In this document: one piece after another, positions 42,183-54,397 of the stretch
Numbering within the stretch: the stretch's first letter is position 1
Layout: the number at the start of each line of letters is the position of its first letter
From: Sandaracinaceae bacterium
Lineage (GTDB): Bacteria; Myxococcota_A; Polyangia; Polyangiales; Sandaracinaceae
Assembly: GCA_040218145.1 (NCBI GenBank)
Contig: JAVJQK010000048.1
Span: 62,001-126,000, forward strand
Length of the DNA stretch: 64,000 nt
Reading direction: 5' to 3'
The notes under the pieces: generated by a model
Seen by the model: only the letters and a program-made list of their open reading frames with translations
What the model was told of the DNA's origin: nothing
Database searches by the model: none
Translations under genes and position numbers: made by a program

Positions 42183-43292
42183 TCACGCGCCGGCCAGGAG
42201 CGGCAGGTGCGCGCTCAGCCGATCGGCGAGCTGACGCACGATCCGGCTCGGATCTCGCGCCTCCAGGGTGGGCAGGCGGATGGCGGGCACCCCGGGCATG
42301 TCCTTGCCGAGGGTCTGCGCGAGGCCGTCGCCCTGACGCTGCCGGGTGTGCAGCTCGGCGTGCACCGCCTCGAGGGCTTGGGTCAGCTCGGCGGGCAGCG
42401 CGCCCTCGCCGTCCAGCTTCTCCAGCCACGCGGGCGTGCCCTCGTCGGCGCGGTTGAGCACCAGCGCGGTGGGGCGCTGCCCGAGGCGCTTGAGCTTGCG
42501 CCCGAGGAAGCGCGCGTCCGCCGCGGCCGAGCCGCTGGGCGCGGCGACCACGAGGTAGCGCGTGGACGGGCCGAGCAAGAGGTGCTCCGAGACGCGGGCG
42601 AGGCGCGCGAAGCGGTCCTTGACCAGGGCCAGCTCCGCGAAGAGCCCCGCCAGGTCACGCAGGGTCTGCGGGTTGACGAGCCGACCGAAGAGCGCCTCGA
42701 CGCGCTTCTTGCCCGCCGCGAGCAGCCCGCCGCCGCTGTCGGGCGCCTCGTCGTCCCCGCCGGTGCCGGCGAGCTGGCCGAGCCAGGTCACCGCGCGCCC
42801 CTCGTAGAGGGTGGCGAGCCGGCCCGGATAAGAGACGAAGTCGAGCCCCTGCCGGGACGGCGCCGTGTCGACCACGAGGTAGTCGAACTGCCGCTCCTCG
42901 ATGGCCTTGGCCACCAGCATGAGCGAGACGATCTCGTGCATGCCCGCCGCCGCGTCCGCGAGCAGCAGGTAGATGCGGTTCTTCAGCATCCGCGCCTTCG
43001 CCTCGGGCTCCTCCTCGAAGAGCAGCTCGATGAAGGTGCGGGTGGAGCGCCGGGGCTCGGGCATGAGCGCGAAGAGCTTGCCCTCGACGCCGGGCTCCAC
43101 GTGCGCCTCGTGCACCACCGCGTCGACGTCGACGCCCATCGCGGAGGCGAGCCGGCGCGCGGGATCGACCGTGACCACGAGGGTGCGGTGGCCTCGGCGG
43201 GCGAGCGCCAACCCGAGCGCGGCGCTCGTCGTCGTCTTGCCCACGCCGCCGCCCCCCGCGCACACGACCGTCTTGGGAGCGTGTGCGCTCAC
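42183..43292 (-). CDS. ArsA/GET3-like ATPase, second of a pair
   Basis: 369 residues from GTG 43292, whose GTGA overlaps the stop of the upstream ATPase. The deviant Walker A CAGGGGVGKTTTSAALGLAL is at about residues 12-31. Switch II is YLVVDTAPSRQGLDF and the adenine loop includes TALVLNRADEGTPAW. The middle region LLFEEEPEAKARMLKNRIYL is the helical subdomain. ArsA/Get3 proteins are dimeric ATPases. In Actinobacteria and some other phyla two such genes sit side by side, as here, probably forming a heterodimer of unknown cargo. No arsenite pump gene is near, so arsenic export is unlikely. Confidence 0.9.
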   Translation of the reverse strand: MSAHAPKTVVCAGGGGVGKTTTSAALGLALARRGHRTLVVTVDPARRLASAMGVDVDAVVHEAHVEPGVEGKLFALMPEPRRSTRTFIELLFEEEPEAKARMLKNRIYLLLADAAAGMHEIVSLMLVAKAIEERQFDYLVVDTAPSRQGLDFVSYPGRLATLYEGRAVTWLGQLAGTGGDDEAPDSGGGLLAAGKKRVEALFGRLVNPQTLRDLAGLFAELALVKDRFARLARVSEHLLLGPSTRYLVVAAPSGSAAADARFLGRKLKRLGQRPTALVLNRADEGTPAWLEKLDGEGALPAELTQALEAVHAELHTRQRQGDGLAQTLGKDMPGVPAIRLPTLEARDPSRIVRQLADRLSAHLPLLAGA

Positions 43293-44185
43293 GCGGCCTT
43301 CTCCCGCGCGAGCCACTCGGCGACCTGCTCCGCCTGGGGATCGAAGGCCACCTGCGGCAACAGCAGCGGGCGAATGTTCAGCCCCTTCTCGGGAGCGTGC
43401 GCCAGCGTCTCCAGGGCCTCGGCCCGGGCCGACTCGCGGGCCTGCAGGATCTCGAGGAGGTGCTCGACCGGATCGCCGAGCGCGTGATCGGACGCGCTGA
43501 GGGCCTTCGCCTGGGCGACCGCGCCCTCGGGGACGGGGGCGGGGAAGCGGTTGACCACCAGGCGCGCGGCCGGCATCCCGACCTCCCGCTCGAGGGCCGC
43601 GCAGAGCTCGAGCGTCTCGGCCAGCACCATGCGCTCGGGGAGCGTGACCACCACGACCGAGGTGGCGCGAGGCGCGACGAGCCGATGCACCAGCCGCTCG
43701 CTGAGCTCGTAGAGCCCGCCCGACCCGAAGAGATCGCGCATCTGGGACGGCAGCCGGAGCCACGCGAGGCCGTGCCCCGTGGCGGGCATGTCGACCACCA
43801 CGCGCTTGCCCTTGGCCCCGTCGGCGATCTGGCCGACCGCGTCGAGCATCGCCAGCTCGCGCAGGGCGGGCGCCGCGCGCAGCATGCGCCGGACGGCGAA
43901 ATTCCCGGTGAAGATCTTCGCGAGCATCTTGCTGCCCAGCAGGCGGCCCACGCTCTTCTCGAGCGCGTCGCGCGGCACGACGACCTCGTGCTGGACCTTG
44001 CGCGCGCTCGAGAGCAGGCGGCGGCCCGAGTCTCCATCCCCGAATTCGACGAAGATCGCCTTTCCGTCGCGTCGCGCCGCGGCCTCGGCGAGGCCTGCGG
44101 CGATGGTGGTCTTCCCGACTCCTCCCTTCCCGGTCACGAGGACGATCGGGGCGAGCGGCGGGTGGGGGCCGGGTACGTCAGCCAT
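43289..44185 (-). CDS. ArsA/GET3-like ATPase, first of a pair
   Basis: 298 residues. The Walker A motif LVTGKGGVGKTTIAAGLAEA is at about residues 16-35, switch II is VVVDMPATGHGLAWLRLP, and the guanine/adenine-loop region is LVVNRFPAPVPEGA. It is shorter than canonical ArsA (one repeat instead of two), as in other bacterial pairs. Translational overlap with the second ATPase gene suggests equal production of the two subunits. Confidence 0.9.
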   Translation of the reverse strand: MADVPGPHPPLAPIVLVTGKGGVGKTTIAAGLAEAAARRDGKAIFVEFGDGDSGRRLLSSARKVQHEVVVPRDALEKSVGRLLGSKMLAKIFTGNFAVRRMLRAAPALRELAMLDAVGQIADGAKGKRVVVDMPATGHGLAWLRLPSQMRDLFGSGGLYELSERLVHRLVAPRATSVVVVTLPERMVLAETLELCAALEREVGMPAARLVVNRFPAPVPEGAVAQAKALSASDHALGDPVEHLLEILQARESARAEALETLAHAPEKGLNIRPLLLPQVAFDPQAEQVAEWLAREKAA

Positions 44186-46524: not shown

Positions 46525-47682
46525 ATGGGGAGATTCATGGACCACGGCGATTTCATGCCGCACGGGCACTGCTACTTCTGGACGCCCGACGTGCTCTGGA
46601 CGAACGTGGTCGCGGACGGAGCGATCGCGCTCGCCTACTTCACGATCCCGCTGATCCTGTTCTTCTTCGTGCGGCGGCGGAGCGACCTCGCCTTCCCCTG
46701 GATCTTCGTGCTCTTCGGGGCGTTCATCCTGCTCTGCGGGACGACGCACGCGTTCGACATCTACACGACCTGGGTGCCGGAGTACCGGGTCGAGGGCTGG
46801 ATCAAGGCGGCGACCGCCCTGGTGAGCGTGACGACCGCGGCCGTGCTCGTGCCGCTGATGCCGAAGGCCCTCGCGCTGCCGAGCCCGGCCGACCTCCGGC
46901 GAGAGGTCGCCGAGCGGCGCGCGGCCGAGGCCGAGGCGCGAGACCTGGCCGATCGGCTGGAGCAGCGCGTCCTCGCGAGGACGCGGGAGCTGGAGCGGGC
47001 GAACGTGGACCTCCGGGAGTTCGTGCACGTGGTCTCGCACGACCTCCGCGAGCCGCTCCGGGCCGTCTCGAACTTCACCGCGCAGCTCGATCGGCGCTAC
47101 GGAGACGCGCTCGACGAGCGCGGCCGCGAGTACGTCTCGCTCGCCCGCGACGGCGCGGTGCGCATGCAGAACATGCTGCGCGACCTCGTGGACTACGCGC
47201 GGCTCGACAAGGAGAGCCTCGACGAGGAGTCGATCTCGATCGACGAGGTGCTGCAGGCGGTCCTCGCCGATCTCTCGGCTCCCATCGAGGACACGGGGGC
47301 GGAGATCGAGGTCGCCGCGCCGCTGCCCGTCGTCGAGGCGAGCTTCACGCACCTGCATCAGCTGTTGACCAACCTCCTCAGCAACGCGATCAAGTACGCG
47401 GGCGACGCGCCGCCGCGGATCCGGGTGGAAGCCGAGGCGGCCGACGAATGGCTGGAGCTGCGCGTGATCGACCACGGCCTCGGCGTCCCGGCGGAGCACC
47501 GCGCCCGCGTCTTCGAGATGTTCCAGCGTCTTCACACCCGCGAGGAGATCGAAGGCTCCGGGGTCGGCCTGGCCATCTGCCGCCGGATCGTCGAGCGCCT
47601 GGGCGGAGAGATCCGCGTGGAGGACACGCCCGGACGAGGCGCGACCTTCGTCGTCCGCATCCCCCAACGGAGGGTTCGTTGA
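46525..47682 (+). CDS. ETR1-like ethylene-binding-domain histidine kinase
   Basis: 385 residues from ATG 46525; ATG 46537 (GGGGAG just before) and GTG 46471 are alternatives. Three transmembrane helices cover residues 25-48, 58-78 and 93-115. Their sequence parallels plant ETR1: DGAIALAYFTIPLILFFFV and FGAFILLCGTTHAFDIY. The ETR1 copper/ethylene residues Asp25, Tyr32, Pro36, Ile62, Cys65 and His69 all occur with the same spacing, as Asp31, Tyr38, Pro42, Ile68, Cys71 and His75. After a coiled coil come HisKA with His172 (HVVSHDLREPLRAV) and HATPase (LLTNLLSNAIKYAGDAP, GSGVGLAICRRIV). No GAF domain or receiver is present. It probably binds Cu(I) and a small olefin. The next gene is an Rcp1-like receiver, its likely target. 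Confidence 0.93.
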   Translation: MGRFMDHGDFMPHGHCYFWTPDVLWTNVVADGAIALAYFTIPLILFFFVRRRSDLAFPWIFVLFGAFILLCGTTHAFDIYTTWVPEYRVEGWIKAATALVSVTTAAVLVPLMPKALALPSPADLRREVAERRAAEAEARDLADRLEQRVLARTRELERANVDLREFVHVVSHDLREPLRAVSNFTAQLDRRYGDALDERGREYVSLARDGAVRMQNMLRDLVDYARLDKESLDEESISIDEVLQAVLADLSAPIEDTGAEIEVAAPLPVVEASFTHLHQLLTNLLSNAIKYAGDAPPRIRVEAEAADEWLELRVIDHGLGVPAEHRARVFEMFQRLHTREEIEGSGVGLAICRRIVERLGGEIRVEDTPGRGATFVVRIPQRRVR

Positions 47683-47708
47683 ACGGCCCCGCCCGCCGTA
47701 TGTATATT
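47679..47708 (+). promoter_or_regulatory. Candidate internal promoter for the receiver gene
   Basis: TTGAAC (47679-47684), 18 nt, TATATT (47703-47708), overlapping the kinase stop. It could let the receiver and hybrid kinase be expressed apart from the ETR1-like kinase. Confidence 0.4.
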
Positions 47709-47732
47709 TGACGCCCTCCGAGACGGTCTCCC

Positions 47733-48113
47733 ATGCAACCCCAAGTCCTGCTCGTCGAAGACAGCCAGTCCGACGCGATGATGCTCCGCGACGCGCTCGA
47801 GGAGCGCGGGATCGAATGGGACGTGACGCGGGCGAAGGACGGCCCGAGCGCGCTCGCCGCGCTCGAGGGCGCGCTGCCGGATCTCATGGTGCTCGATCTG
47901 TCGCTGCCCGGGATGCGAGGCGACGAGGTGCTCACCCGCGTGCGGGCGCACGCGGCGACGGCTGCGCTCCGGGTCGTCGTGCTCACGGGCACGCCCAACC
48001 CTCGGGAGGAGCGCCGCTGCCGCGCGCTCGGCGCGACGGACTTCTTCGTCAAGCCGAACCTGCCCGACGGATACCTGGCGCTCGCCGACAGCCTGAGAGA
48101 ACACCTCCTGTGA
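47733..48113 (+). CDS. Single-domain response regulator, Rcp1-like
   Basis: 126 residues, receiver domain only. The acidic pocket is VEDSQSD, the phospho-acceptor is Asp55 (PDLMVLDLSLPGMRG), the switch Thr is in VVVLTGTPNPREERR and the lysine in DFFVKPN. The sequence resembles the small Rcp1 regulators that pair with phytochrome-type kinases. It lies 50 nt after the ETR1-like kinase and overlaps the hybrid kinase by 4 nt, so it may be a phosphorelay shuttle between the two. No output domain is present. Confidence 0.92.
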   Translation: MQPQVLLVEDSQSDAMMLRDALEERGIEWDVTRAKDGPSALAALEGALPDLMVLDLSLPGMRGDEVLTRVRAHAATAALRVVVLTGTPNPREERRCRALGATDFFVKPNLPDGYLALADSLREHLL

Positions 48114-50017
48114 ACGAGCGCGCCAAGCGGCTCCTTCGCGACGCCGGCTCGGAGCGGACCTCGGTCCTGCTCGTCGAGGACAGCGCCAGCGACCGGCGCC
48201 TCCTGCTCGACGCGATGGAGAACTTCGCGACGGTGCGCGCGGTCGCGAAGCTCCAGGACGCGCTCGCGCTGCTCGACGCGGAGGAGGCCGACGTCGTCCT
48301 GCTCGATCTGCACCTCCCGGACGCGTACGGGCTCGAGGGGCTGATCCGACTGCGCGAGCGTCACCCGCAGCTCCCCGTGGTGGTGCTCACCGGGGGCGAG
48401 CTCGACGTCGCGCTCGACGCGCTGGCCGAGGGAGCGCAGGACTTCCTGTCAAAGGACGAGATCGATCCCCTCCGTCTCGCGCGCGCCATCGCCTTCGCGC
48501 TCGAGCGGCAGCAGCTGCGCGAGCAGCTCGAGTCGCGGGCGGACGACGCGGCGCGCTCGGCCGAGGAGCTCGAGGGCGTGCTCGAGGTGGCGGCCGACGC
48601 CCTGCTGCTCCTGGACGTCGCATCGCTGCGGATCGTCTGGGCGAACGAGGCCGCGCGGGCCCTGTTCCGCGCCGAGGCCGAGACGTCGATCCTCGGTCGG
48701 CGACCGCTGACCGCGTCGATGCTGGAGCGAGCCCGGTCCGGGGAGGTCGAGGTTCAGGCGAACGTCAACGGCGGCGACAAGCGGGACCTGGCGCTGCGCG
48801 CGACCCGCACCCGCTTTCGCGGGGCGCCCGTCTGGTACGCGTCGCTGCGAGACGCGGAGTCGCGACGCGAGACCGAAGAAGCGGAGCGGCGGCTGGTGCG
48901 CGGAGAACGTCTGCTCGCGCTCGGGCAGATGGCCGCGAGCGTGTCGCACGAGATCAACAACCCCATCGCGTACGTGCTCGCGAACCTCCAGACCCTGCAG
49001 CGCGCGATGCGCGCCGGCTCGCAGTGGGACCGCGACGCGGACGAGATGCTGGACGACGCATTGACGGGGTCCCAGCGCGTCGCGTCGATCGTCAGCGATC
49101 TGCAGACCTTCGCGCGCGTGCGGGACGAGGCGGTGACCCGCGTGCACCTGGACGTGGTGGCGAGGGCGGCGCTCAACCTGCTGTCGAGCCGCGTGCGGAA
49201 GTCGCGCGCGAAGGTGCAGATGGAGCTGCCGGAGGTCGCCCCCATCTCGGCCTTCGAGGGGCGCCTCATCCAGGTGGCGAGCAACCTGGTCGCCAACGCG
49301 CTCGACGCCCTCGAGGAGAGCGGCGGCACGGTGACGGTGCGGACGACCGAGGACGAAGCGGGCGTCTGCCTGATCGTCGAGGACGACGGGCCCGGCATGA
49401 GCGAGGAGACGCGCCAGCGCGTGTTCACGCCGTTCTTCACCACCAAGGGCAGCCGCGGCGGCATGGGGCTCGGCTTGAGCGTGTGCGCCGAGATCGCGGA
49501 CCGACACGGGGGCACGCTCGCCCTCGACTCGCAGCTGGCGCAGGGCACGCGCGTCACGCTGCGGTTGCCCAGGGCCACCGGGCTCGAGGCGGAGCGGCCC
49601 GCGCCGACCCACAGCGGGACCCGGGCGCGCGTCCGAGGGGGGCGCATCCTGCTCATCGACGACGAGGAGCTCGTGCGCCGCGGCTACCGCCGCATGCTCG
49701 GCCGGCGCTTCGAGATCGAGACCGCCGCGAGCGGGCCGGACGCGCTGGCGCTCCTGGCGCGCGATGAGCGCTTCGACCTCGTGCTCTGCGACGTCGAGAT
49801 GCCGGAGATGGATGGCCCGTCGGTGCTCGAGGCGATCGAGCGGCTGCACCCCGATCTCGCGCCCCGCTTCGTGTTCTGCACGGGCGGCGTCTTCACGGAG
49901 GCCAGCGTGCACGCGCTCGCGCAGCGCTCCGTGCCCACGGTGGCCAAGCCGCTCGACCTCGCCACGGTGCGAGACCTCGTCCATCGCTTCTCGAGCGACG
50001 AGGCCGCCGAAGGGTGA
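48110..50017 (+). CDS. REC-PAS-kinase-REC hybrid histidine kinase
   Basis: 635 residues from GTG 48110. Order: receiver 1 with Asp66 (VVLLDLHLPDA), a PAS-like domain (about 155-245, LEVAADALLLLDVASLRIVW), HisKA with His280 (ASVSHEINNPIAYVLANLQT), HATPase (VASNLVANALDALEESGG, VEDDGPGMSEE, SRGGMGLGLSVCAEIA), and receiver 2 with Asp561 (LVLCDVEMPEMDGPS). The HEINNPIAYV box is common in phosphorelay kinases. There is no membrane helix. Two receivers around one kinase core suggest a multi-step relay downstream of the ETR1-like kinase. The RluA-type gene overlaps its stop by 4 nt. Confidence 0.92.
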   Translation: MNERAKRLLRDAGSERTSVLLVEDSASDRRLLLDAMENFATVRAVAKLQDALALLDAEEADVVLLDLHLPDAYGLEGLIRLRERHPQLPVVVLTGGELDVALDALAEGAQDFLSKDEIDPLRLARAIAFALERQQLREQLESRADDAARSAEELEGVLEVAADALLLLDVASLRIVWANEAARALFRAEAETSILGRRPLTASMLERARSGEVEVQANVNGGDKRDLALRATRTRFRGAPVWYASLRDAESRRETEEAERRLVRGERLLALGQMAASVSHEINNPIAYVLANLQTLQRAMRAGSQWDRDADEMLDDALTGSQRVASIVSDLQTFARVRDEAVTRVHLDVVARAALNLLSSRVRKSRAKVQMELPEVAPISAFEGRLIQVASNLVANALDALEESGGTVTVRTTEDEAGVCLIVEDDGPGMSEETRQRVFTPFFTTKGSRGGMGLGLSVCAEIADRHGGTLALDSQLAQGTRVTLRLPRATGLEAERPAPTHSGTRARVRGGRILLIDDEELVRRGYRRMLGRRFEIETAASGPDALALLARDERFDLVLCDVEMPEMDGPSVLEAIERLHPDLAPRFVFCTGGVFTEASVHALAQRSVPTVAKPLDLATVRDLVHRFSSDEAAEG

Positions 50018-50664
50018 CCCGACTCTCGATCCTCCACGACGCGGACGGAGTGGTGGTGGTCGACAAGCCGCCCGGGCTCGAGGCGACCGGCCGCACGCCC
50101 GACGATCCGGGCGGGGTCCAGCATCACCTCGCGGTCCAGCTGCGGCGGCCCGTCTGGGCCGTGCACCAGCTCGACCGCGACACGAGCGGGGTGCTGATCT
50201 TCGTCCGCAAGAGGTCGCTCGTCGCGCGCTGGCAGGAGGCGCTGGCGAGGGGCGACAAGCGCTACGTCGCGCTCGTGCACGGACGTGAGGGGCACGGGAG
50301 CGAGGCGTTCGAGCCGCGCACGATCGACGCGCCCTTGGCCTACGATCGCGGCGCGCGGCGATGGGTGGTGCGCGAGGGAGGTAAGCCGGCGCGCTCGACG
50401 GTGGAGGTCGTGTCGGTCGGCGCCGACGCGATGCGTGTGCATGTCACCTTGCACACCGGGCGCACGCACCAGGCGCGCGTGCACCTCGCGCACGTGGGCC
50501 ACCCGCTGATCGGAGAGCGGCGCTACCGCACGCCTCCTTGCGAGCTGCACCCTCGGCACGCGCTGCACGCGGCGCGCGTCGCGGCCCTCGGGGCGGTGTT
50601 CGAGGCGCCGCTGCCAGAGGACCTGAGAGCGCTCGCGCGGCGGCTCGGGCTCGACGAGGGGTGA
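50014..50664 (+). CDS. RluA-type pseudouridine synthase
   Basis: 216 residues from GTG 50014, overlapping the hybrid-kinase stop. The catalytic motif is WAVHQLDRDTSGVLIF, with Asp54 in the HxLDxxTSG box (Arg replaced by Gln). Other family marks are VVVDKPPGLEATG near the N-terminus and LHTGRTHQARVHLAHVGHPL near the C-terminus. It has no S4 domain and is shorter than RluC/RluD, closer to RluA/TruC in size. It turns uridine to pseudouridine in rRNA or tRNA; the site is unknown. It is the last gene of the ETR1-like cluster. Confidence 0.9.
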   Translation: MTRLSILHDADGVVVVDKPPGLEATGRTPDDPGGVQHHLAVQLRRPVWAVHQLDRDTSGVLIFVRKRSLVARWQEALARGDKRYVALVHGREGHGSEAFEPRTIDAPLAYDRGARRWVVREGGKPARSTVEVVSVGADAMRVHVTLHTGRTHQARVHLAHVGHPLIGERRYRTPPCELHPRHALHAARVAALGAVFEAPLPEDLRALARRLGLDEG

Positions 50665-50757: not shown

Positions 50758-51246
50758 CTACTCGGCGTCGGGGGCGGCGCCGGGGGCGAGGACCTGGAGG
50801 CGGGCGGCGCGGGGGACCTCGACGCGGGCCGTCTCTTCGAGCGCGGCGTCTTCGGTCATCTCGTCGACGTCGGCGCGGAGGGCGATCACGGCGTCGCCTT
50901 CGCGGCGCACTTCGTAGCGGGCGCCGGCCCCGGCCCACCAGCAGCGCGCCTGGATCAGGGCGTCCGCGGGGTCCTGGTGGTAGCAGGCGCCGGTCTCGGT
51001 GCCGAGGTCGCGGGCCACGCGCTCGCCGTCGGGCGCGATCCGCACGAGCAGGACCCGGGTGTGCGGGGTCTCGTTCTCGTCGGTGCCCGCGTCCGCGAAG
51101 CGCAGCGCGATGGCGTAGCTCGACGGCGGCGCCTCCGCCTCCTCCTCGGGCTCCTCGGCGGGCGGGGTCGCGGCGCCGCAGCCAGCGAGGAGGAGCGCGC
51201 TCAGGAGCAGCACGCGGCGGAGGGGGCGGTCGAGGTCGGGTCTCAT
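50758..51246 (-). CDS. Small lipoprotein of the NtrC/RegB-like operon
   Basis: 162 residues. The signal [14 protein letters not shown] has the lipobox LAGC (Cys23), followed by an acidic stretch ([12 protein letters not shown]). The mature domain has beta-type strands ([34 protein letters not shown]) and Cys residues in GACYHQDP and ARCWWAG. I do not recognise a family. The start overlaps the NtrC-type regulator's stop (ATGA), so it belongs to that operon and may report an envelope state to the kinase. Confidence 0.8.
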
Positions 51247-52634
51247 TCGTCCGCCGTGATGCCATAGGAGCGCAGCTTGCGCTGCAAGGTTCGCCGATCG
51301 ATGCCGAGGCTCGACGCGGCCTTGGTGATGTTGCCGTCGAGGCGCTCGAGGGTGCGCTCGATGTGCTTTCGCTCCACCTCGGCGAGGCTGAGATCCGCGT
51401 CGGACCCGACCGGGGGGCGCGAGGGCGCGGGCGGGCGCTCGCTGCGGCGCGGGCGTCCCCCTGGCTGCGCGAAGACGCTCGCGGCGAGCATGCGCCGGAC
51501 GAGTGGGCCGTCGATGGTCCGCCCCGCCGCGAAGAGCGACGCGCGCCGCAAGACGTTGAGCAGCTCTCGCACGTTCCCCGGCCAGTCGTGCGCCATCAGC
51601 GCCTCCTTGGCGTCGCTCGACAGCTCGTGCGCGGGGCCGCCGAGCCTCGACAGCAGGTGGTTGGCGAGCGGCACCACGTCCTCGGGCCGGTCGCGCATGG
51701 GCGGCAGCACGATCGGGAAGACCTGCAGGCGGAAGTACAGGTCCTCGCGGAAGCGCCCCTCACGCACCTCGGTCCAGAGATCCCGGTTGGTCGCGGCGAT
51801 GATGCGCACGTCGACCGAGATCTCGCTCGTGCCGCCGATGGGCCGGATGTTCTTGGTCTCGAGCGCGCGCAGGAGCTTCGCCTGGCTCTCGAGCGGCAGC
51901 TCCGCCAGCTCGTCGATGAAGAGGGTGCCGCCGTCCGCGTCGCGGAACAGCCCGTTGCGATCCCCGGTCGCCCCGGTGAACGCGCCCTTCTTGTGCCCGA
52001 ACAGCTCGCTCTCGAAGAGCTCGCGCGGCACGCACGCGGCGTTCAACGCCACGAACGGCGCCGTGCAGCGCGGGCTCGCGAGGTGCACGCGCCGCGCGAC
52101 GACCTCCTTGCCGGTCCCCGTCTCCCCGTACACCGCGACGGTCGCGTCGGTCGGCCCCACCTGCGCGATGAACCCGCGCACCTCTTCCATCGCGTCGCTC
52201 ACCCCGATGAGCGGCGGCGCGAACTCCGTGTCGCCGCTGCGCTGCCCCCGTGACTCCGCGATGGCCTGGTTGAGGAGCGGCGCGAGCAGGTCGGCGTCGA
52301 CGGGCTTCTCCAGGAACGAGAACGCCCCGAGCTTCATCGCCTCGACCGCGGCGGCCACGGTGCCGTGCCCGGTGAGCACCACGACGCGCGTGGTGGTGCC
52401 GCTCGAGCGCCGCAGCACGTCGAGCCCGTCGAGGTCTCCCATGCGCAGATCGAGCAGCGCCGCGTCGGGAGGGTCCGCCGCGTTGAGCCGGCCGAGCGCG
52501 GGCTCGCCCCCCGGCGCCTCGTCGACGTCGTAGCCGAGGCGGCGCAGCGCCTTCTTCATCGCGAAACGGAAGCTGTCGTCGTCGTCGATGACGAGGACGG
52601 TCCCGCCGGGCGCTCGCTCGGTCGCCTCGCTCAC
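51243..52634 (-). CDS. NtrC-family sigma54-dependent response regulator
   Basis: 463 residues from GTG 52634, overlapping the kinase stop (GTGA). The receiver has the acidic pocket VIDDDDS and phospho-acceptor Asp62 ([14 protein letters not shown]). The AAA+ domain has Walker [14 protein letters not shown], the sigma54 contact loop [14 protein letters not shown], and Walker [14 protein letters not shown] Pro/Arg linker leads to the Fis-type helix-turn-helix [20 protein letters not shown]. It should activate sigma54 promoters when phosphorylated by the RegB-like kinase encoded just upstream. No sigma54 promoter was recognised in the neighbourhood. Confidence 0.95.
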
Positions 52635-54397
52635 TCCGCCGCCTCCGGGCTCCGGCCGATCTGGACCAGCCGCTCCCCACGCTCCCCCGCGGCCGGGAGC
52701 GCGACCACCGCGCGCGCGCCGCCGCCTTCGCGGTTCTCGAGGCTCATCGTCCCGTTCATCGAGGTCACCAGCATGTACGAGGTGTAGAGGCCCAGCCCCG
52801 TGCCCTTGCCGGGCGGCTTCGTCGTGGCGAAGGGCTCGAAGAGCCGCCCCTCGATCTCCGTCGGCACGCCCGGCCCGTCGTCGTCGATCACGATCTCCAC
52901 CCGCGGCCCGTCGCGCCGCGCGCCCACCCGCACCCCGCCCCGCGTGCCCTCGCGCACCGCGTCGTAGGCGTTCTGCAGCAGGTTCACCATCACCTGGACG
53001 AGGTGGTCCGGGTCGGCGGCCACGGTGTGCGCGGAGAGCTCCGCGCCGACCGCCACGGGCACGTTCTTTCGCGCCCCGGCGAAGACCAGCGCGCGGGCCC
53101 GCTCGACCACCGCGCCGAGCGGCACCGCCCCGTCGATCTCGCTCGCCGTCAGGTCTCGGCCCGTCAACAGTCCCTGCGTGATGCGACCGAGGCGCCGCGT
53201 CTCGTCGTGTACCAGCGCGGCGGACTCGGAGAGATCGTCGAGGAGATCGTCGAGCATCGGCTGCTGCGGATCGCCTCCCGACTGCTTGAGCGCGGCCACC
53301 ATGTCCGCGGCCAGCGTCCGGATGGTGGCCAGCGGCGTGTTCAGCTCGTGCGCGACGCCCTGCGTGACCCGCCCCAGGCTCGCCAGGCGCTCGGCGAGGA
53401 TGAGGCGCCGCTCGTTCACGAGCCCCGCGGTGCGATCCACGTACAGGTTCATCACCCGCTGGCCGTCGTGATCGGCGCCGAGCGGGAAGACCTGCATCTC
53501 GTAGATGCGCTCCTCGCCCTCGAGCTTGACCGCGAACCGGCAGTGGCCGGGCTCGCCCTCGTCGAGCGCGTTGCGCACGGGGCAGACCCCGGTCACGTCC
53601 TGCTCGCACGCGCGCACGTCGCCCGGGCACGCCCAGTGATCGTGGCCCTCGGGGATGGCGGGCGCGAGCTGCTCGGCGCGCTTGTTCCGCCAGATCACTA
53701 CGCCGTCCTTCTCGACGACCTCGAGCCCCGCCTCGAGCTCGTCGAGCGTGTTGGTCAGCACCTCCAGCTCGAGCGCCGCGCGCTCCCGCGCCTCGGCCAG
53801 CGCGCGCTCCCGGTGGCGGAGCTGCCGCACGGCGTGGTTCACGAGGTAGGCGACCGAGCCGACGGTGGTCGCGAAGGCGACGATCTCGGCGAAGAGGTCC
53901 CACGGCCAGACCGGGTCCCAGCGCCCGATCTGGAGCGCGGGCACGTGCTCGGTGACGAGGAGCAGGCCGGAGAACAGGAGCGCGGCGAGCGCGGCGATGA
54001 CCGTCGGGCGCGCCCCGCCCAGGATGCCGACGATGGCGACGTGGAAGACGTAGTACCCGATGAACGGGGTCCGCATGCCGCCCGCGGCCCAGAGCACGAC
54101 GGTGAGCACGAGCATGTCCACGACCGCCTGCCGCACCGCCTCGTGCGTGCCACGCGTGGCCACCTTCCGGTGACGCCGCCAGAGCACGAAGTTGTAGACG
54201 CCGGCGCACCCCACGGTGCCGAGCAGCACCGGCCAGCTGACGCCGGGGAAGAAGCCGAGGGACGCCACGCCGGCGGCGAAGAGGATGCCGGCGAGCGCGA
54301 TCCAGCGCAGACGGATCAGCCACCGCATCCGATCGACGGAGAAGTCGTCGGGCTCGTTGCCCACGAAGGGGCGCGAGTGCCGGATGCCGAGGGCCAT
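52631..54397 (-). CDS. RegB/PrrB-like membrane histidine kinase with cysteine-rich PAS domain
   Basis: 588 residues, with six membrane helices in the first 190. The segment [17 protein letters not shown], after the third helix, is close to the quinone-binding GGxxNPF box of RegB, with Thr in place of Asn. A coiled coil leads to a PAS-like domain (about 215-320) with Cys257, Cys264, Cys272 and Cys286 ([20 protein letters not shown]). HisKA has His350 in [14 protein letters not shown], very near the RegB box AHELGTPLATI. HATPase motifs follow ([40 protein letters not shown]). It is probably a redox or quinone sensor. Its partner is the NtrC-type regulator, not a RegA-type one. Confidence 0.9.

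Follow-up and report, generated by a model that had tools for sequence, protein, structure and literature searches.

A histidine kinase with an ETR1-type domain, a lone receiver and a hybrid kinase in an apparent operon of a marine Sandaracinaceae bacterium

Three consecutive genes in a 64,000-nucleotide stretch of DNA from a Sandaracinaceae bacterium (the whole stretch analysed, hereafter the window) raise the question of whether a myxobacterium could possess an ethylene receptor, and through which partners such a receptor would signal. An initial annotation, made from the sequence alone, had described them as an ETR1-like kinase with a receiver and a hybrid kinase of its own. The Pfam scan and the gene coordinates support this description, and the three genes form an apparent operon.

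The ETR1-type domain and its kinase

The first gene (46525..47682, + strand), with an ATG start, encodes a histidine kinase of 385 amino acids, as judged from the list of open reading frames, Pfam and a structural model. ETR1_N (PF25487) was found at residues 23–118 with 129.7 bits (E 5e-38, model positions 2–97 of 97), the curated cut-off of this profile being 27 bits, and is joined by a coiled-coil linker to HisKA (163–229, E 6e-13), followed by HATPase_c (275–382, E 5e-31). The kinase core is intact, with His172, Asn287 and the glycine boxes conserved, and the scan of the 385 residues revealed neither GAF nor PAS, nor anything notable beyond these three domains. The top match among solved structures is the bacteriophytochrome kinase RpBphP2 (8f71, E 1.6e-42); the listed PDB fold-search matches cover essentially the kinase part, and a sequence comparison of the N-terminal domain with solved structures gave no match. 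Judged from its sequence, the protein is confirmed at the domain level as a real ETR1-type ethylene-binding domain (EBD) on an intact phytochrome-type histidine kinase.

In ETR1, seven residues are required for ethylene binding: Asp25, Tyr32, Ile35, Pro36, Ile62, Cys65 and His69. A gapless alignment with ETR1 gave 37% identity over 107 amino acids and placed Asp31, Tyr38, Ile41 and Pro42 of the first transmembrane helix and Ile68, Cys71 and His75 of the second at these positions, with a constant offset of 6; the segment with all seven spans 46615..46749 (+ strand). The initial annotation had named six of these equivalents at the same offset, which holds, and had missed that of Ile35, which brings the set to seven out of seven. 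In addition, Lys94 of the receptor matches ETR1 Lys91 (offset 3). Residues of ETR1 needed for ethylene binding are identified in earlier studies (PMC6586836, PMC8879215, PMC12643061), one of which describes Asp25, Cys65 and His69 as its copper site (PMC12643061). The AlphaFold2 model, obtained from a 46-sequence alignment with a mean pLDDT of 91.4 and a pTM of 0.71, predicts helices at residues 21–51, 58–83 and 87–117. Alignment and model agree in locating Cys71 and His75 in the second helix, a placement on which the initial proposal depended, and the receptor would be expected to bind Cu(I) and ethylene. By analogy, the conserved N-terminal cysteine (Cys16) may serve as a dimer disulphide residue, a role suggested for the single cysteine of cyanobacterial receptors (PMC6682694).

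The conservation of these positions was compared in 87 EBD proteins. The complete set of seven occurs in 69 of them, the departures being Asp to Asn or Glu, Pro to Ala, Ser or Thr, and Ile to Leu or Val, together with one truncated row, whereas the Cys and His at the positions of Cys71 and His75 are invariant. Metal binding thus appears to be the most conserved property, and many of the hosts are marine or groundwater bacteria for which a plant association is not known, two points that would fit a Cu(I) or redox sensor built on an ETR1 fold, with a natural ligand other than ethylene. We consider such a sensor unlikely, given that the window receptor keeps all seven residues, including the hydrophobic positions that serve ethylene rather than copper binding, and that SynEtr1 and AzoEtr1 bind ethylene.

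The lone receiver, the hybrid kinase and a proposed route of the phosphate

The second gene (47733..48113, + strand) encodes a lone receiver (REC) of 126 amino acids, typed by Pfam and solved matches as a bacteriophytochrome response regulator (Rcp1-like). Inspection of the sequence revealed the phospho-acceptor Asp55 in the motif LMVLDLSLPG and the Lys of FFVKP; the best solved match is the response regulator 6xvu and the next is 8avv, a bacteriophytochrome–response regulator chain. By these features the protein can be assigned to the Rcp1-like stand-alone class, closest to phytochrome regulators. The third gene (48110..50017, + strand), with a GTG start, encodes a hybrid kinase of 635 amino acids in which Pfam recognised REC, PAS_8, HisKA, HATPase_c and REC domains, and both of its receivers keep the conserved Asp. 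A gap of 50 bases separates the receptor gene from that of the lone receiver, the stop of which overlaps the GTG start of the hybrid by 4 bases. A pseudouridine synthase gene (PseudoU_synth_2, 50014..50664, + strand; open reading frame list and Pfam) overlaps the end of the hybrid gene and is likely merely co-transcribed with the EBD genes.

Other genes of the window were also recorded. On the minus strand, positions 51243–54397 hold a membrane kinase that weakly matches PilS and, next to it, a response regulator whose sequence looks like that of a sigma54 activator; this two-component system is convergent with the EBD operon and separate from it. Two neighbouring ArsA/GET3-type ATPase-like open reading frames were recognised by sequence motifs at 42183–44185 (minus strand), and a further kinase of the phytochrome-type class, with a kinase core 42% identical, lies between 30627 and about 32000 (minus strand).

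We infer the direction of regulation, the phosphotransfer partners and the physiological role of the system as follows. The explanation that we regard as probable is that a bacterial EBD kinase module senses ethylene or a similar olefin and phosphorylates the lone receiver and the first REC of the hybrid in parallel. The three-helix membrane domain, probably dimeric, would hold Cu(I) on Cys71 and His75 and sense ethylene or a similar small olefin, which would alter the autophosphorylation of His172 in the bacteriophytochrome-type kinase. Phosphate would then reach two cognate receivers: the lone receiver, which is armless and could act as a phosphate sink, a modulator or a protein-binding output, and the N-terminal REC of the hybrid, through which an output protein that can be exchanged would receive its signal. 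In this operon the output would be another kinase, whose own C-terminal receiver would relay the signal onward. The initial annotation had instead proposed a serial route, from the EBD kinase to the lone receiver and from there to the hybrid, as the gene order might suggest. Transfer of an aspartyl phosphate from receiver to receiver normally needs a His domain, and Pfam detected no Hpt gene or His domain encoded between the lone receiver and the hybrid; in addition, several relatives (loci L033 and L048 among them) have a REC-effector after the EBD kinase and no lone receiver. By established two-component chemistry, receivers would rarely exchange phosphate directly, with no His domain to mediate; we therefore prefer the two parallel targets and hold the serial relay to be very improbable.

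Gene order and distribution among relatives

As the initial annotation had suggested, the neighbours were compared in related genomes. Local HMMs and a purpose-built gene caller served to read the gene order around 60 EBD kinases lacking a fused receiver, retained after duplicate removal, of which three were cut by a contig end, leaving 57. A lone REC and a REC-effector lie downstream in 13 of the 57, a lone REC alone in seven and a REC-effector alone in five; the other 32, a majority, have neither partner directly downstream, which counts against the proposed explanation. The pair was found in none of the 33 REC-fused EBD kinases with a readable neighbour. The 13 three-gene cases belong to Myxococcota, Cyanobacteriota, Nitrospinota, Hyphomicrobiales, Oxalobacteraceae and Verrucomicrobiota. 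Scanning ten of the third genes for output domains revealed GGDEF (L037), GGDEF-EAL (L043, L079, L088 and L091, some of them cut by the locus end), an adenylate/guanylate cyclase (L053), histidine kinases (L054, L082 and L030) and, in L064, PAS only. This varied output behind a constant REC leads us to propose that the EBD kinase acts on the first REC of the hybrid.

EBDs scored above the cut-off in 17 of 284 Myxococcota genomes (about 6%), and EBD relatives are encoded in 441 stretches of genome_contigs, the best 80 of which come from Pseudomonadota, Bacteroidota, Acidobacteriota, Verrucomicrobiota, Cyanobacteriota, Nitrospinota and others; in viral contigs, the sole match was one weak EBD fragment. 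A relay that would be new, as first suggested, is at odds with this spread and with the recurrence of the three-gene order in other phyla. The absence of GAF from the receptor was correctly noted; as a distinguishing feature it fails, since AzoEtr1 also lacks GAF and a domain scan found it in none of the 87 full-length EBD proteins, a sample in which the best 80 of 441 carry a bias, their ranking having used a query that itself lacks GAF, whereas the Myxococcota members were chosen by the EBD alone. The scan shows that GAF is outside the usual design among the sampled bacterial relatives. The EBD tree leaves the nearest kin of the window receptor unresolved. Three Myxococcota proteins (L042, L044 and L045), which are EBD-kinase-REC-kinase fusions, carry Asn at the position of Asp25 and Ala or Thr at that of Pro36, and their ligand binding may differ.

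A second trio of matching composition and order (EBD kinase, lone receiver, REC-PAS-kinase-REC hybrid; L030:6350-9871, contig C48, minus strand) is encoded in the same genome, on the same contig and about 100 kb away from the window set. Identities between the two sets are 44% for the receptor, 38% for the receiver and 31% for the hybrid. The N-terminal type of the L030 EBD is FPPRWQCG, as against FMPHGHCY in the window receptor, and in the EBD tree it groups with four other Myxococcota EBDs in an RWxC clade that has full support and is separate from the window receptor. Given the different EBD type and this separate clade, a recent duplication is excluded as the origin of the L030 set, which on sequence grounds is anciently diverged from the window set. 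RWxC in place of MPHGHC before the first transmembrane helix characterises L030, L037, L038, L039 and L043, a single clade found here only in Myxococcota, and the five RWxC EBDs in the tree retain all seven binding positions.

As a control, the 20 nearest non-EBD kinases were read in the same genome. Three of them (L130, L132 and L134) are followed by a lone REC and a REC-kinase in a row, and a lone REC is present in L131 and L145. The module is therefore not EBD-specific, and the layout as such says nothing specific about ethylene. Since non-EBD kinases share it, and since the kinase and receiver are closest to phytochrome types, the layout belongs to the kinase class, with the EBD as an exchangeable plug-in input.

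Habitat, known systems and meaning

The closest public record is the metagenome-assembled genome Sandaracinaceae MED-G138 (L049), with protein identities of 99.7% for the receptor and 99.2% for the receiver. That a near-identical receptor occurs in a second assembly, with binding, kinase and receiver motifs all intact in the window, makes it very improbable that the EBD has lost its function and that the operon is driven by the PAS of the hybrid or by cross-talk, as the rarity of the domain in the family (absent from eight other Sandaracinaceae genomes searched) could suggest. MED-G138 increased in bottle-incubated offshore Mediterranean seawater from a depth of 15 m (PMC6931264), so that the organism is better regarded as marine, from sunlit water, than as the soil myxobacterium first assumed. 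Ethylene is produced photochemically in seawater (PMC6682694), and a plausible cue is ethylene that sunlight generates from dissolved organic matter in the sea. Concerning synthesis by the organism itself, two DIOX_N 2-oxoglutarate oxygenases of its genome (L150 and L151) match the ethylene-forming enzyme distantly (79 and 119 bits), and no source gene is claimed.

Among known systems, AzoEtr1 of Azospirillum brasilense is a GAF-less EBD-PAS-HK protein that binds ethylene, and AzoRR-etr1 is a lone regulator of 135 amino acids overlapping its stop (PMC11819568). In both systems a GAF-less receptor carries the seven residues in an EBD at its N terminus and a histidine kinase at its C terminus, and a lone regulator of about 130 amino acids lies directly downstream in an apparent operon (PMC11819568); AzoEtr1 differs by its PAS domain, by the lack of any hybrid kinase reported with the pair and by its demonstrated ethylene binding, whereas the window receptor is known from sequence. 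GAF-less bacterial EBD kinases with a lone regulator are thus already published (PMC11819568), and the window receptor joins a known bacterial family. SynEtr1-Slr1213-Slr1214 of Synechocystis likewise combines an EBD kinase with two regulator genes and phosphotransfer to a response regulator, Slr1213 increasing transcription of CsiR1 and slr1214 (PMC6682694); SynEtr1, however, carries PAS and GAF and senses light, in a scheme without a hybrid kinase (PMC6682694). With plant ETR1 the receptor has in common the three-helix copper–ethylene domain, but ETR1 has a GAF, a fused receiver and a CTR1 output, whereas the window kinase is unfused and of phytochrome type. The pairs of bacteriophytochrome kinase and armless receiver (RpBphP2, DrBphP, Cph1-Rcp1) resemble it in kinase and receiver classes, but the window system has a membrane EBD in place of the chromophore module. 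Among the open-access papers searched, none dealt with ethylene receptors of myxobacteria; an earlier listing in a 2006 mutagenesis study or a 2019 survey is possible.

More tentatively, the EBD kinase, lone REC and REC-effector might form a portable ethylene-signalling cassette across phyla, the third gene being a swappable output (kinase, GGDEF, GGDEF-EAL or nucleotide cyclase), and one marine myxobacterium might read photochemical or algal seawater ethylene with two anciently diverged copies; we see this as a possibility with the odds somewhat against it. Should the window receptor sense ethylene as predicted, such sensing would extend beyond plants and cyanobacteria to free-living marine myxobacteria. 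The operons listed here would allow the wiring of bacterial ethylene receptors to be compared, with a second messenger in some and a second kinase in others.
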